Source: Thiotrichaceae bacterium (GTDB taxonomy: Bacteria > Pseudomonadota > Gammaproteobacteria > Thiotrichales > Thiotrichaceae). Taken from it: a stretch of DNA of 34,847 nucleotides. This document shows, one piece after another, positions 4,492 through 34,018 of this stretch. Numbering within the stretch: position 1 is the stretch's first letter; the number at the start of each line of letters is the position of its first letter. The notes under the pieces are model-generated. The model saw only the letters and a program-made list of their open reading frames with translations. It had not been told where the DNA came from and made no database searches. The translations under genes were made by a program, and so were the position numbers. The stretch spans positions 1-34,847 of the forward strand of contig JALSLM010000108.1 in the NCBI GenBank assembly GCA_026988295.1. The letters are read 5' to 3'.

Positions 4492-4567
4492 AAAAAGTGC
4501 AAAAAACAGGGGGGATGGGTATCTATCTTATATGCTACCCATCCTCCCCCTTTTTTACACTTTTTAT
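4492..4567. repeat. Two family C repeats in inverted orientation (long hairpin; possible bidirectional terminator)
   Basis: AAAAAGTGCAAAAAACAGGGGGGATGGGTA ... TACCCATCCTCCCCCTTTTTTACACTTTTT between convergent yhhQ and selO. Confidence 0.85.
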
Positions 4568-6317: not shown

Positions 6318-6408
6318 AGGTATCATCAATATCTTAAAAAAACATAGTATGCACCAGTTTATAAATACAAGTAAGAATGAAAGGATTATTATTGTGCCAT
6401 CTCTTATT

Positions 6409-6886
6409 AAGGAAACCCTGATTAATGATTAGAATTTAGCGCAGAAAAATCTGTCGCTATTTTTCATGAAATGAAACGTAATAGTTATTCTATTGCGGTG
6501 AGCTTCATGGAAAATATCGGCAGATTTGGCAAGCTAAAAATAATTGGACTTGATCAGGGTTTCCTTAAGGAAAGCCTGATTAAGTCGATTAGAATTTAGC
6601 GCAGAAAAATCTGTCGCTATTTTTCATGAAGTGAAACGTAATAGTTATTCTATTGCGGTGAGCTTCATGGAAAATATCGGCAGATTTGGCAAGCTAAAAA
6701 TAATTGGACTTGATCAGGGTTTCCTTAAGGAAAGCCTGATTAAGTCGATTAGAATTTAGCGCAGAAAAATCTGTCGCTATTTTTCATGAAGTGAAACGTA
6801 ATAGTTATTCTATTGCGGTGAGCTTCATGGAAAATATCGGCAGATTTGGCAAGCTAAAAATAATTGGACTTGATCAGGGTTTCCTT
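6409..6886. repeat. Family B: three tandem ~158-160-bp palindromic MITE-like units
   Basis: Units start at 6409, 6567 and 6727; each starts AAGGAAA(C/G)CCTGATTAA and ends GGACTTGATCAGGGTTTCCTT, with arms complementary almost throughout. Confidence 0.9.
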
Positions 6887-6907
6887 CAGCACACACAGGA
6901 ATCCACA

Positions 6908-10031: not shown

Positions 10032-10073
10032 TACTTCATCCTAGTTGTAATGCTAATGGTCAAGTTCTCTTAT

Positions 10074-10108
10074 AACCCATCCCCCCCTTTTTTTACATAT
10101 TTTTTCTT
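10074..10108 (-). repeat. Family C repeat (G strand is minus)
   Basis: TAACCCATCCCCCCCTTTTTTTACATATTTTTT. Confidence 0.85.
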
Positions 10109-11478: not shown

Positions 11479-11549
11479 GTTTGTATGTCATTAATAATCA
11501 ATATAGTACATCGTTTATATTTTGGTTATTAAAGTCCAAAACTTGACTT

Positions 11550-11616
11550 TAAGGAAAACCTGATTAAGCCGATTGGAATTTGGCACTAAAAATAATTGGA
11601 CTTGATCAGGGTTTCC
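11550..11616. repeat. Family B internally deleted copy
   Basis: AAGGAAAACCTGATTAAGCCGATTGGAATTTGGC...AAAAATAATTGGACTTGATCAGGGTTTCC. Confidence 0.8.
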
Positions 11617-11676
11617 ATAAGTGCATAGTTTAGTTACTTCAAAAAAAAATTATCATGATTCAGTATAAGGTTAATA

Positions 11677-14224: not shown

Positions 14225-14256
14225 ATACCCATCCCCCCCTTTTTTTCACTATTTTT
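14225..14256 (-). repeat. Family C repeat (G strand is minus), 5' leader of the LolA-like gene
   Basis: TACCCATCCCCCCCTTTTTTTCACTATTTTT. Confidence 0.85.
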
Positions 14257-14285
14257 AAATGAGAGATTGTTTTTTTATTGCAATG

Positions 14286-14452
14286 CTAGGAGGCTGTCCG
14301 AGAACTAAGAATTGACTGCAAACCCCATAAACATCATAATCTGAGCTTATCAAATTCGTTAAATAGAGCGACTATTCGCCTCTTTTGATAAGCCCACCTT
14401 ATAATATTTCTGGCATTTTCGTTTCAATCCTAGTTCTCGGACAACCTCCTAG
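14286..14452. mobile_element. Family A MITE-like element (~167 bp)
   Basis: CTAGGAGGCTGTCCGAGAACTA ... TAGTTCTCGGACAACCTCCTAG; interior differs from the copy at 109-274. Confidence 0.75.
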
Positions 14453-14484
14453 GAGGCTATCCGAGAACTCGGACAGCCTCCTAG
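14449..14484. repeat. Family A minimal palindrome (36 bp), supplies the stop codon of the permease gene
   Basis: CTAGGAGGCTATCCGAGAACTCGGACAGCCTCCTAG. Confidence 0.85.
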
Positions 14485-15890
14485 CCATGCCTGATTGCAT
14501 CGACAATATTCATCCTAGCAGCAAGACGTGCTGGAATCAGTGATGAAATACTCGCAACAAATACCATTAGTAACCATGTTCCAATCAGTAGAAATGGGTT
14601 TGCATATAGAAGAATTCGTAATGAGGTACTACTGGCATTACTAGGAGGTGTCCACTCCAAGCCAGCTCTATTGAAAGAGAAGGCAACAACAATGCTGGTA
14701 ATAATGCCAAGTGTGGCACCTGTAACGCCAATGACAGCACCTTCTGTAAAAAACTGTTTAAGAATGCCACTGCGTCGAACGCCCATTGCTCTAAGTGAAC
14801 CGATCTCTGTAATACGCTCCATCACACTCATGGTTAAGGTATTGATAGTGGTAAAAAGAACAACGAGGCTGATGACAACAACCATAAAGAGAAATAACAT
14901 CGAAAACATATTAATCACTTTAAAAAACTGTGGATTAAACTCAGTAAAGTTTTTAACCTCGAACTTCTGCCCTTTTAGATCTACCTTATTCAAAAGTGCT
15001 TGAATCGTATTTTGAATATCTTTCATCTTATCGGTATTTTTAAGCTGTAGCACAATGGCACTAGCACGAGATTTATCGGCATAAACAAGATTCTGTGCAT
15101 GATTAAAGTGCATACTAATAAAGCCATCATCGAGAAACTTATTCCCTTGTTGCTGGGCTTCTATCACTGTGAGAGATAAAGCATTGGGTGCGCCACTGCC
15201 TGTAGATGCCAGTAGATCTATTTGGACTCCTTTTTGTGGGCTTTTCTGTTGTGAATCTTGTGTGGCAACTTTTTCAGATTCAACCATATCTTGAAAAGAT
15301 AAAATATCATTATCTACAGGTGAGTTGTTAGTAGATAAGGCTTGATCTTTGCAACCTGCTACTTTTAATGGTTTACACAAATTTAGCATTTTAGCCATAC
15401 CAAACCCAACCACCCCTTGATCAGTTTTATGATCAGTCAGTGCTATTTTTTGTGGTTTTAAATTAAGCTGATAATAATCCCAATTTTGCATTTTATTATA
15501 ATGTGAAGGAATAATACCGTTGCCAATAAAAGTTTTAGAAGTATCAGCTGCATAGTTACCTGCTATTCCACTTAAACGAACAACAGGCGTAATGACTTCT
15601 ATTTCTTGCTTAATAGTCTTGTTGTTTTCTATAAGTTTTATAACATCCTTATAATCATCAATAAAATATTCTGTCGGACGGCTTGAGCCATACTCAAGAT
15701 AACCTATAGGATAAATATGAAGATGCCCCTGAGCTCGCACAATTCCTGTCTGCAAGCCATAATAAATACTGGAAATAAAACCACCAAAAAGTAGCAAGGC
15801 AAGTACCCCGATAATCATGGCGAATATTGTCATTAAAGAGCGACGACCATTGCGAAAAAGATTTCTAATCGCAAGTTGTAAATTACTCAT
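14481..15890 (-). CDS. ABC transporter permease, FtsX/LolCE/MacB-like
   Basis: NLFRNGRRSLMTIFAMIIGVLALLLFGG; VMERITEIGSLRAMGVRRSGILKQFFTEGAVIG; SLIPARLAARMNIVDAIRHG. Confidence 0.92.
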   Translation of the reverse strand: MSNLQLAIRNLFRNGRRSLMTIFAMIIGVLALLLFGGFISSIYYGLQTGIVRAQGHLHIYPIGYLEYGSSRPTEYFIDDYKDVIKLIENNKTIKQEIEVITPVVRLSGIAGNYAADTSKTFIGNGIIPSHYNKMQNWDYYQLNLKPQKIALTDHKTDQGVVGFGMAKMLNLCKPLKVAGCKDQALSTNNSPVDNDILSFQDMVESEKVATQDSQQKSPQKGVQIDLLASTGSGAPNALSLTVIEAQQQGNKFLDDGFISMHFNHAQNLVYADKSRASAIVLQLKNTDKMKDIQNTIQALLNKVDLKGQKFEVKNFTEFNPQFFKVINMFSMLFLFMVVVISLVVLFTTINTLTMSVMERITEIGSLRAMGVRRSGILKQFFTEGAVIGVTGATLGIITSIVVAFSFNRAGLEWTPPSNASSTSLRILLYANPFLLIGTWLLMVFVASISSLIPARLAARMNIVDAIRHG

Positions 15891-20267: not shown

Positions 20268-20340
20268 CTGAAGATAAATACTATACGAATCAACAGTTTG
20301 CATCCTGTTCCGTAGTAACCTATCGGGTTTAGATTATAGA

Positions 20341-20370
20341 TACCCATCCCCCCCCTTTTTTTATACTTTG
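20341..20370 (-). repeat. Family C repeat
   Basis: TACCCATCCCCCCCCTTTTTTTATACTTTG. Confidence 0.85.
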
Positions 20371-22208: not shown

Positions 22209-22391
22209 TCAAAAAAACCTAAGCAAAACCAGACCTGCTAGAAAGGTATAAACACCTATTGGCATGGTAAAAAACGCCTTAAAGTCATCGGGTATAAACT
22301 TCTCACTAGCAGGAAAAAATTTTCTCACTAAGCCAAAAAGAAAAATTGGAACCGCGACTAATAATAATAAAACACCTATTGAAGTTAACAT
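22209..22391 (-). CDS. Small two-TM membrane protein
   Basis: 60-62 aa, hydrophobic; start (22397 or 22391) lies in or at the edge of a family C repeat. Confidence 0.5.
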   Translation of the reverse strand: MLTSIGVLLLLVAVPIFLFGLVRKFFPASEKFIPDDFKAFFTMPIGVYTFLAGLVLLRFF

Positions 22392-22420
22392 ACCCATCCC
22401 CCCCTTTTTTTACATATTTT
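22391..22420 (-). repeat. Family C repeat overlapping the start of the small membrane protein ORF
   Basis: TACCCATCCCCCCCTTTTTTTACATATTTT. Confidence 0.88.
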
Positions 22421-22461: not shown

Positions 22462-22482
22462 AGTTCTCAGACAGCCTCCTAG
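22462..22482. repeat. Family A half-element, supplies the stop codon of the pteridine reductase gene
   Basis: AGTTCTCAGACAGCCTCCTAG. Confidence 0.8.
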
Positions 22483-23231
22483 TGATTCAATAAACGACCG
22501 CCATCAACGGGAATAATATGCCCTGTAATATAATCTGCATCGCATACTAAAAAAAGGATTGCTTTGGCAATATCTTTTGGGCTTCCTTCACGTTTCAAGC
22601 AGGTTTTGTTTAATATCTCTAACTGTTCATCTATTCCACTTATTCCGCTTTCATTCTCTGGCCAAAGAATAGCTCCTGGCGCAACTCCATTTACTCTAAC
22701 TTCTGGGCCGAGTTCTCTTGCTAAAGATTGCGTTAGCATTAATAATCCTGCCTTTGCCGAACTATAAACAGTGTGATCTTTTAAAGGACGTATACCGTGA
22801 ATATCCACCATATTAACGATACAGCCTTTATTTTTAATTAGCTCAGGTGCAGCTAGTTGTGATAAAAATAATGGGGCTTTTAAATTGCTTGCCATTAGAT
22901 TATCCCAATCTTCTTCGCTTATCTTACCTAAAGGTGTGGCAAAAAAGCTCGATGCATTATTAATAAGAATATCCAAACGACCTGCTTGATGAATTATAGC
23001 ATCAATCATCTTTGATAATTGTGTTGTATCAGATAGCTCGGCTTGATGCAAATAGCAAGAATCAGGACGTATTGCATTTAATTTTTTACTCAATTCTTCA
23101 GCATCTTTAGCAGAATTACGGTAGTGTATCACCACCGTTGCACCTGCCTGATGCAAGGCTTGTACGGTCACCGCGCCAATACGCCGTGCTGAACCTGTTA
23201 CTAAAGCAACTTTACCTTTTAGATTTTGCAT
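22479..23231 (-). CDS. Pteridine reductase (SDR family, FolM/PTR1-like)
   Basis: LKGKVALVTGSARRIGAVTVQALHQAGATVVIHYRNS; VYSSAKAGLLMLTQSLARELGPEVRVNGVAPGAILWP. Confidence 0.87.
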   Translation of the reverse strand: MQNLKGKVALVTGSARRIGAVTVQALHQAGATVVIHYRNSAKDAEELSKKLNAIRPDSCYLHQAELSDTTQLSKMIDAIIHQAGRLDILINNASSFFATPLGKISEEDWDNLMASNLKAPLFLSQLAAPELIKNKGCIVNMVDIHGIRPLKDHTVYSSAKAGLLMLTQSLARELGPEVRVNGVAPGAILWPENESGISGIDEQLEILNKTCLKREGSPKDIAKAILFLVCDADYITGHIIPVDGGRLLNH

Positions 23232-23248
23232 GTAGACTCTCATACCCA

Positions 23249-24469
23249 ATGAAACATATTCAAAGTTTACCAGAACCCTCCGCTGATGCCTTGCAACATA
23301 GTCAAAAACTTGTTGAACGCATTTGTGATGAAATTAAAAATACTGCCAATGCTAATACTCGCAATACAAATAATAACGGCAGTATTTCTTTTCGCCGCTA
23401 TATGGAAATGGCTCTATATGAGCCTGCACTAGGTTATTATGTGGCAGGCACTCATAAGATTGGTGCAGCTGGTGACTTTATTACTGCGCCAGAAATCTCT
23501 CCTTTATTTTCTCAATGTATAGCAAATCAATGTGCTGGTATTTTAAAAAAGTATAAAAAAGGGGGGGGATGGGTTTTAGAGCTAGGTGCAGGCTCTGGTA
23601 TTATGGCAAGCGATATTTTATTAGAGTTAGAACGACTGGAGCAATTACCTGAGCAATATCTAATATTAGACCTCAGCCCTGATCTAATACAACGTCAGCA
23701 ACAATTGCTAACAGAGCGTGTGCCTCATTTGCTTAATCGTGTGAAATGGATTAACCAGTTACCTGAGAATTTTGATGGTATTATTATTGGCAATGAAGTA
23801 CTGGATGCCATGCCTGTTGAGGTTTTCACCCAGCACAATGACCAGCTTTATCAACATCATGTTATTTGGGAGAATAATCAACTTTTTGAGCAACTACAGC
23901 CCGCCAATGAATCTCTGCAACAGCTCGTAGAAGCCTTAAATATCCCACAGCAAGCTACCCCTTATACCTCTGAAACCAACCCCAATCTTGATGGTTGGTT
24001 TAAAGCACTCAGCAAAAGCATAAACTCGGCTGTCATTTTATTAATTGATTATGGCTACCCACGCAAAGAATACTACTTGCCAGAGCGCAATAAAGGCACG
24101 CTTATTTGCCATTATCAACATTTGATTAATGAAGCCCCCCTATTCTACCCAGGCTTGCAGGACATTACTGCCAGTGTCGATTTCACCGCTGTTGCTGAAG
24201 CTGCCGATAATGCGGGTCTATCAATAACTGGCTTCACATCACAGGCTGCTTTTTTAGCCAATGCAGGCTTAGAAAACTACTTTATGCAAGAGCTCGATAA
24301 AAATCCCGATAATCAATATAAACTAGCGCAGCAGGTACGCACATTGAGTCTACCCTCCGAAATGGGAGAACGCTTTAAAGTCATCGCACTAACAAAAGCA
24401 ATTGATAAGGATGATAATAACAGTGATATGATTGGCTTTTCATCACTTGATCAGCGCTATCGCTTATAG
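23249..24469 (+). CDS. Class I SAM-dependent methyltransferase, MidA/NDUFAF7 family
   Basis: ISFRRYMEMALYEPALGYYVAG, GDFITAPEISPLFSQCIA, VLELGAGSG, GNEVLDAMPVEVF. Confidence 0.92.
   Translation: MKHIQSLPEPSADALQHSQKLVERICDEIKNTANANTRNTNNNGSISFRRYMEMALYEPALGYYVAGTHKIGAAGDFITAPEISPLFSQCIANQCAGILKKYKKGGGWVLELGAGSGIMASDILLELERLEQLPEQYLILDLSPDLIQRQQQLLTERVPHLLNRVKWINQLPENFDGIIIGNEVLDAMPVEVFTQHNDQLYQHHVIWENNQLFEQLQPANESLQQLVEALNIPQQATPYTSETNPNLDGWFKALSKSINSAVILLIDYGYPRKEYYLPERNKGTLICHYQHLINEAPLFYPGLQDITASVDFTAVAEAADNAGLSITGFTSQAAFLANAGLENYFMQELDKNPDNQYKLAQQVRTLSLPSEMGERFKVIALTKAIDKDDNNSDMIGFSSLDQRYRL
23546..23576 (+). repeat. Family C repeat in frame within the methyltransferase CDS (A6G8 tract)
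   Basis: AAAAAGTATAAAAAAGGGGGGGGATGGGTT translated as KKYKKGGGWV. Confidence 0.85.
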
Positions 24470-25554: not shown

Positions 25555-26481
25555 ATGTCTGATAAATTACATAGATTTCTACTAGAAAACCTTAATATTC
25601 GCGGAGAATGGGTTTCACTCAATAATTCTTGGCAAGAAATCCAAAATTCTGCCAAATACCCCAAAGCAGTACGCCATGTATTAGGTGAAGCATTAGCTAT
25701 TGTTAGTTTATTAGCAGAATCATTAAAATTTGATGGCTCACTAACACTACAAATTAGAGGCACTCAACCCGTTACTATGCTTGTTGTGCAAGCCACTTCT
25801 GAGGGAGATATTCGCGGCATTGCGAAGTGGCAAGGTGAGATTTTAGATAACACACCATTTAGCGAGCTTTTTGGTGCTGGCACTATGGTTATCAGTATTG
25901 AAAACAATCCAAAATCAGAAGCTAGGAAAAGTAAACAATACCAAAGTCTAGTCTCATTAGAAGGTGACTCACTTGCCGCCTGTTTAATAGAATACTTTGC
26001 ACAATCTGAACAATTAGAAACACAACTGTGGTTGGCTGTTGATGATAAATCCGTAGCAGGGCTTATGCTTCAAAGCATCCCAACTGAGGCTACAGCTAAC
26101 GATAGTTTAGATATGAATGAAAAAAATAACTGGAATCATGCAACCATACTTGCCGACTCACTCAGCAAAGATGAGCTATTAAGCCTTGATGTTAAAACCC
26201 TACTTCATCGCCTCTATCATGAAGAAGATTTACGTCTGTATAATGCCAAATCATTACGCTTTAAATGCAGTTGCTCTCAAACAAAAATTGATCGAATGAT
26301 TTATGCATTAGGTGAGGCAGATGCCAATGCTCTAATTCAAGAACAAGGAACTATTGATGTAGATTGTAAATTTTGCAACAAGCACTACGTACTCGATCAA
26401 GTTGATATTGCCAGACTTTTTAGTAAGGGATTTACACCACAGGACTCAATAGATAATAGTGATCAACCCAAGGTTCATTGA
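25555..26481 (+). CDS. hslO: Hsp33 redox-regulated chaperone
   Basis: C-terminal CSC…CKFC zinc motif. Confidence 0.95.
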   Translation: MSDKLHRFLLENLNIRGEWVSLNNSWQEIQNSAKYPKAVRHVLGEALAIVSLLAESLKFDGSLTLQIRGTQPVTMLVVQATSEGDIRGIAKWQGEILDNTPFSELFGAGTMVISIENNPKSEARKSKQYQSLVSLEGDSLAACLIEYFAQSEQLETQLWLAVDDKSVAGLMLQSIPTEATANDSLDMNEKNNWNHATILADSLSKDELLSLDVKTLLHRLYHEEDLRLYNAKSLRFKCSCSQTKIDRMIYALGEADANALIQEQGTIDVDCKFCNKHYVLDQVDIARLFSKGFTPQDSIDNSDQPKVH

Positions 26482-26640
26482 GAAAAACCTGATTAAGTCG
26501 CTAAACCCATCATCATAAAAAAGTGTAAAAAAGGGGGGGGGATGGGTAGCCTTGAAAATATTTGAGGCTTTGTGGCTATGAGACAAGAAAATTTAGATTT
26601 TTATACGGCTAAAATAATTGGACTTGATCAGGATTTCCCT
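26481..26640. mobile_element. Family B-ended 160-bp element with replaced interior containing a family C repeat
   Basis: GAGAAAAACCTGATTAAGTCG … AAAATAATTGGACTTGATCAGGATTTCC. Confidence 0.7.
26516..26548 (+). repeat. Family C repeat
   Basis: AAAAAAGTGTAAAAAAGGGGGGGGGATGGGTA. Confidence 0.88.
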
Positions 26641-26652
26641 AAAAGTGAGACC

Positions 26653-27863: not shown

Positions 27864-27895
27864 TAAAATATGTAAAAAAAGGGGGGGATGGGTAT
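27864..27895 (+). repeat. Family C repeat in fumarase leader
   Basis: ATAAAATATGTAAAAAAAGGGGGGGATGGGTATG. Confidence 0.88.
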
Positions 27896-33795: not shown

Positions 33796-33819
33796 CAAAG
33801 AGCTATAGTTAGTTGGGTT

Positions 33820-33966
33820 AAGGAAAGCCTGATCAAGTCCAATTATTTTTAGCTTGCCAAATCTGCTGATATTTTCCATGAAGCTCGACGCAATAGAATG
33901 ACTATTACGTCTCACTTCATGAGAAATAGCGACAGATTTTTCTGCGCTAAATTCTAATCGAGCTAA
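33820..33966 (-). repeat. Family B copy in inverse orientation, right end truncated
   Basis: AAGGAAAGCCTGATCAAGTCCAATTATTTTTAGCTTGCCAAATCTGC…CGACAGATTTTTCTGCGCTAAATTCTAATCG. Confidence 0.85.
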
Positions 33967-33987
33967 TCATCAAACTAATGTTGTAAA

Positions 33988-34018
33988 TACCCATCCCCTC
34001 CTTTTTTATGACTTTTTT
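33988..34018 (-). repeat. Family C repeat (interrupted C tract)
   Basis: TACCCATCCCCTCCTTTTTTATGACTTTTTT. Confidence 0.75.

Follow-up and report, generated by a model that had tools for sequence, protein, structure and literature searches.

What is an unbroken A6G8 tract doing in the reading frame of a methyltransferase gene? The original prediction for this locus answered that an intergenic repeat had been exapted into the gene, directly before SAM motif I, and that slippage in the G tract might switch the enzyme ON and OFF. We examined the tract in the window (the whole stretch of 34,847 nucleotides from a Thiotrichaceae bacterium), in its source genome (G000, 2.77 Mb) and in sampled congeners (G001-G011), which makes 12 genomes of the genus. 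By analogy with known systems, we think that the motif most likely works as the Neisseria DUS and the Haemophilus USS do, marking the DNA of the species for uptake.

The methyltransferase gene and its motif copy

The sequence, position and frame of the tract proved to be as predicted: AAAAAAGGGGGGGGATGGGT lies in frame at window positions 23546-23576, and the in-frame ATG at 23249 opens an intact gene of 406 aa with no internal stops. A profile search matched Methyltransf_28 over the full length of the protein (E 7e-58), and solved relatives include 4f3n/4g67, 1zkd and the NDUFAF7 homolog 5ztz. The protein is thus a full-length family member like the MidA/NDUFAF7 methyltransferases of known structure (PDB 4f3n, 1zkd, 5ztz), but the variable segment before its motif I holds the motif-encoded residues KKYKKGGGW. 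Named records matching it come mostly from Gammaproteobacteria, at 50% identity or less, and none is titled Pasteurellaceae. The gene and the motif copies in the window are as follows.

23249..24469, + strand: gene for a MidA/NDUFAF7-type SAM-dependent methyltransferase (406 aa, PF02636), from the open reading frame and a profile match
23546..23576, + strand: in-frame motif copy (AAAAAGTATAAAAAAGGGGGGGGATGGGTTT) encoding KKYKKGGGWVL directly before LELGAGSG, from the sequence, motif search and MidA alignment
4492..4522, + strand: motif copy, left half of a close inverted pair, from motif search (hairpin -36 kcal/mol, z -6.1)
4535..4565, - strand: motif copy, right half of the inverted pair with 4492..4522, from motif search and hairpin fold
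10073..10103, - strand: motif copy, from motif search
14225..14255, - strand: motif copy, from motif search
20340..20370, - strand: motif copy with an identical A6G8ATGGGT core, from motif search
22390..22420, - strand: motif copy, from motif search
26518..26548, + strand: motif copy, from motif search
27865..27895, + strand: motif copy, from motif search
33987..34018, - strand: diverged motif copy with 3 mismatches, from motif search

The string AAAAAAGGGGGGGGATGGG has exact matches in the window at 23555-23573 (+) and 20343-20361 (-). When up to three mismatches were allowed, 11 matches were obtained at 10 distinct places, and none in 100 dinucleotide-preserving shuffles.

The window contains other repeats as well. 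A 160-bp unit is present in three near-identical tandem copies at 6407-6906. An inverted copy at 33818-33969, 27 kb off, matches it at 94%, and shorter pieces lie at 11549-11621 and 26478-26643; the unit constitutes a second dispersed family. A third type is palindromic, built around GTTCTCAGACAGCCTCCTAGGAGGCTGTCCGAGAAC, and lies at 93-127, 256-279, 14270-14304, 14433-14489 and 22463-22497. Within recC, a 12-bp tandem array (TTCTGATATGGC) of 5.8 copies with 100% matches occupies 2566-2634, its unit being a multiple of three.

Abundance, anatomy and dialects

Over the whole source genome, the 18-mer AAAAAGGGGGGGATGGGT was found 337 times forward and 348 times in reverse (~685) with up to two mismatches, compared to a single match for the reversed-pattern control, and the core in the gene is indeed the cassette of the intergenic sites. 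The genome of G002, the nearest congener, holds 815 copies of identical anatomy. The repeat unit exceeds the A6G8ATGGG core: a consensus of 117 copies from 390 kb of G000 is ~30 nt long and non-palindromic, and runs from an A-box across about one helical turn to a second A-box, G6, A, TGGGT and an AT-rich stretch. Beyond ~30 nt no conserved flank was detected in the G000 copies, whose outer sequence is unrelated. The consensus carries ~40-50 bits of information. Rfam gave no match to the repeat, and no earlier report of the motif was found in a literature search that covered subscription papers thinly.

By k-mer counts, the most over-represented 10-mer was a form of the motif family in all nine motif-rich members of the genus sampled, G000 included. 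At least four dialects occur across the genus, at a density of about one copy per 3-6 kb. All fit one register, and the only parts common to them are G6-(A/G)-TG and a pair of A-boxes separated by roughly one turn of the helix. The dialects, with a hyphen marking the register, are these.

G000 and G002: AAAA..(T)..AAAAAA.GGGGGGA-TGGGT
G010 (a few copies also in G001 and G005): ACAAATCATCGAAAAA.AGGGGGG-TGG
G003 and G008: AAAAA..GCCT.AAAGTAGGGGGG-TG(A/C)C
G004, G009 and G011: AAAAGTAGGGGGG-TGTC(A/T)TTT
G007: AAAA.....AAAAAG..GGGGGG-TGTACTTTT

Whole-genome counts of AAGTRGGGGGGTG were 1084 in G003, 1119 in G008, 766 in G004, 721 in G011 and 482 in G009, and AAAANRGGGGGGTGG occurred 347 times in G010. 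For G007, AAGTRGGGGGGTG gave a less certain 297, as the reversed control was high at 173; its dialect was therefore read from sampled stretches. Dialect totals thus range from ~300 to 1100 in G003, G004 and G007-G011, and are near zero in G006. Outside the genus there were at most 10 dialect matches per genome, similar to the reversed control. The grouping by dialect matches clades in a tree of pilins (G003 with G008; G004 with G009 and G011; G001 with G005), a tree in which many forks are weak.

Strand, place and competing explanations

With a simple ORF caller, 106 of the 120 copies in G000 were intergenic even though 83% of the DNA is coding, and across the species sampled the intergenic share was 76-100%. 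Intragenic copies fall in more than one reading frame, yielding KYVKKGGDG, KKGGGW, KVGGC and KWGG, or HPPP/TPPHF in antisense. The intergenic copies of G003 have GTA 131 times and GTG 11 times, and those within its ORFs have GTA 9 times and GTG 15 times; in the KWGG frame, GTA would give a stop.

The main rival to an uptake signal is that a factor for chromosome maintenance within the cell binds the motif (KOPS-, Chi- or nucleoid-protein-like), with the dialects arising by co-evolution of protein and site. We consider this unlikely, even as the strongest of the alternatives. The motif is G-rich and polar like KOPS and Chi, and in G003 (107:56) and G008 (46:7) its G-strand lies on the G-rich strand, as judged by skew over the whole stretch, with neighboring copies sharing orientation. 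However, the G-strand has no significant preference in G000 (62:58), G002 (16:24), G007 or G010 (13:13). After masking of the copies, the bias falls to 66% in G003 and 72% in G008, close to the value expected for nine G positions from the local GC skew by itself, although the skew model is a rough guide only, because the bias it predicts in G000 is absent. Full replichore polarity was rejected, as the sampled stretches show a bias that is partial and confined to G003 and G008; the strong leading-strand polarity of KOPS and Chi was not seen. KOPS and Chi sites are 8-mers, whereas the motif is ~30 bp, unbiased in G000 and mainly intergenic, and by simple arithmetic its 40-50 bits are far above the ~13 bits needed for finding 700 sites. 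A TG-G sub-variant in G003 looks more polar by eye, with 32 of 35 on one strand among the places listed for contig C2 and a switch near 112-136 kb. In contigs C2 (beyond 120 kb) and C3 of G003, the base after TG was A 28, G 18, T 14 and C 6 times on the minus strand, and G 5, C 10, T 4 and A 0 times on the plus strand. These strand differences keep the maintenance-site reading alive.

A second possibility, which we hold to be somewhat less probable still, is that the motif is a miniature mobile element of the REP or MITE kind, which spread intergenically and landed once, in frame, in midA. The strong intergenic preference, the near-identical ~30 bp copies and the close inverted pairs all resemble such elements, and REP/RAYT repeats are likewise short, abundant, intergenic and at times paired in inversion. 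What argues against a mobile repeat is the occupation of the same homologous codons in four to six species, in the same orientation and in differing dialects. At the MidA codons before LELGAGSG, AAAAAAGGGGGGGGATGGG occurs in G000 and in G002, whose protein is 75% identical and has the same in-frame A6G8 at the same codons, and AAAGTGGGGGGGTGY, an A3GTG7 form, occurs in G003, G007, G008 and G011. All six frames are open, and the G007 copy runs on into its own dialect tail, TGTACTTTT. At this site no motif was found in G001, G004 or other genera; G009 was examined apart from the main alignment. The residues are genus-specific, and other genera are mostly 2-3 residues shorter here, often with GGGD. 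The G008 protein has ~23 extra residues before the site compared to G000, with the frame remaining open.

A sulfatase-family gene (PF00884) repeats the pattern, holding the resident dialect in the same orientation throughout: ...AAAAAGGGGGGGGATGGGT in G002, ...GTGGGGGGGTGTACTTTT in G007, ...GTGGGGGGGTGTCTTTTT in G004 and ...GTGGGGGGGTGACTTTT in G003. A lone insertion cannot yield four dialects at one place; every lineage must have converted the site to the form that it uses. The predicted exaptation of a repeat thus holds insofar as a genome-wide motif does sit in the methyltransferase gene; as for how it came there, the MidA site looks less like one inserted repeat than like a permissive loop where every lineage maintains the motif in its own version.

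Conservation in place also speaks against mobility. Over 71 kb of alignment between G003 and G008 at 83% identity, 15 of 18 copies are shared, one is found only in G003 and two only in G008. Within the shared copies, identity is 97-100% at most core positions and 93-100% in the upstream A-box, and it drops to 53-73% in the adjacent flanks. DUS are likewise highly conserved, in more divergent and permissive places that are mostly intergenic in aligned core regions (Treangen et al., PMC2397512). In addition, single copies of the motif are not palindromic and have no conserved flank beyond ~30 nt. A RAYT/REP origin was rejected on this ground and because several motif-rich congeners lack a Y1 transposase match; no Y1/RAYT-type transposase was found in the motif-carrying G003, G004, G007, G009 and G011.

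There is little to recommend the idea that the motif serves mainly as a transcription terminator or other regulatory element. Inverted pairs do form strong predicted stems followed by U-runs, as at 4492-4565, and convergent gaps are occupied at 0.9-4.6 copies per kb in all eight species sampled. Close pairs are nearly all inverted, including 11 of 11 in G000, but these 11 stand among 120 copies, most of which are single and have no hairpin partner. Tandem and divergent gaps are also occupied, so that nearly all gaps of the three kinds are used; promoters are not preferred, and orientation relative to genes is neither fixed nor biased, which also speaks against promoter operators. In contig C3 of G003, at ~940.99-941.13 kb, four copies lie in direct tandem with 41-bp spacing.

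The least probable reading is the predicted ON/OFF switching, in which the G8 tract would make midA a phase-variable contingency gene: G8 is long enough for slippage and the purine run (A-run, G-run, A) does vary among G000 copies, being 15 nt in 41 of 69 unbroken copies and 14-18 nt in the remainder, so that tracts do change over time, but the midA copies of G000 and G002 have the modal 15, the site is in frame in six species with open ORFs (A6G8 in two, A3GTG7 in four), the G-run is accounted for by a mainly intergenic motif and thus needs no switching function, and MidA-type enzymes are, to our knowledge, no usual contingency class.

A candidate DNA-uptake sequence

We favor an uptake-like function because it explains together the abundance, the dialects, the homologous codons, the conservation in place and the inverted pairs. 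Several hallmarks of DUS and USS are found in the motif, namely high copy number, dialects with an invariant inner core, and copies conserved in place within divergent, permissive sequence. Further hallmarks are the occurrence of both orientations, of intragenic and intergenic copies, and of frequent inverted pairs with a predicted terminator-capable fold. By this account, the type IV pilus machinery would carry a receptor at the cell surface with a preference for motif-bearing DNA, and cells would take up mainly DNA of their own species. Through biased uptake and homologous recombination, copies could then multiply and be repaired at any place that tolerates them, which may be in intergenic DNA and in permissive loops of proteins, like that preceding motif I of MidA. 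One candidate receptor is a FimT-type minor pilin; a GRxR-type tail has been implicated in DNA binding by the FimT of Legionella (PMC8897410).

We also looked for competence machinery in the genus. Of the sampled congeners, only the incomplete G004 yielded no ComEC, and FimT-type pilins ending in GR[VI][KR], a GRxR-like tail, are present in the genus (the G000 entry in the pilin comparison is a neighboring pilin and not FimT itself). Both also occur in the motif-poor G001, G005 and G006. ComEC, which is nearly universal, was therefore rejected as a discriminator, and FimT/GspH pilins as a receptor marker.

Foreign DNA showed no clear depletion of the motif, and nine viral contigs among 2.9 million had one exact match each. 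Motif-free gaps comprise core genes in G000 and a region with a secretin and a pretoxin-HINT protein in G003. The latter is a 13-kb gap at 60-73 kb of contig C2 and is possibly acquired DNA. We count several observations against an uptake signal: this lack of clear depletion, the 76-100% intergenic skew, an information content of ~40-50 bits that exceeds that of DUS, the leading-strand bias in G003 and G008, and the presence of FimT-like pilins and ComEC in motif-poor species.

The motif is similar in design to the USS. The latter is discontinuous and up to ~32 nt long, and combines a core with AT-rich segments set at helical intervals; it is present in hundreds of copies, forms inverted pairs, and differs in type between subclades around a common inner core (PMC12616744; PMC1626085). 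However, the core of the present motif, G6-(A/G)-TG, is unrelated to the GCGG of the Pasteurellaceae USS (Hin-type AAGTGCGGT and Apl-type ACAAGCGGT), its A-boxes lie 5' of the core and not 3', and it is more strongly intergenic. With the DUS of Neisseriaceae it shares dialects within one family around an invariant inner core, conserved copies in divergent permissive places, and frequent inverted pairs (PMC3630211; PMC2397512). DUS differ from it in being 10-13 nt long and continuous, with a CTG core and thousands of copies per genome, and ComP, the known DUS receptor, is restricted to that family.

According to a 2025 paper, motif-based discrimination of DNA is known from two families alone, Neisseriaceae and Pasteurellaceae (PMC12616744). 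The motif may represent, and on balance we lean towards this view, a third system of DNA uptake sequences that evolved independently. Its signal, ~30 bp with a G6 core, occurs in four or more dialects of a single gammaproteobacterial genus that apparently does not belong to Pasteurellaceae; biased uptake would maintain it, and it can be seen even in proteins, at homologous codons. If so, a third tag for self-DNA, with a sequence unlike the others and more than one dialect inside a genus, would offer an independent replicate for open questions, such as how uptake specificity and hundreds to thousands of sites change jointly, what the receptor is, and how tags reshape proteins. On the last of these, sister species differ in the dialect that they carry at homologous codons, both in MidA and in a sulfatase-family protein. 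Should the motif prove not to serve uptake, the presence at ~700 sites of a ~30 bp signal that varies by species dialect would still call for a new explanation.
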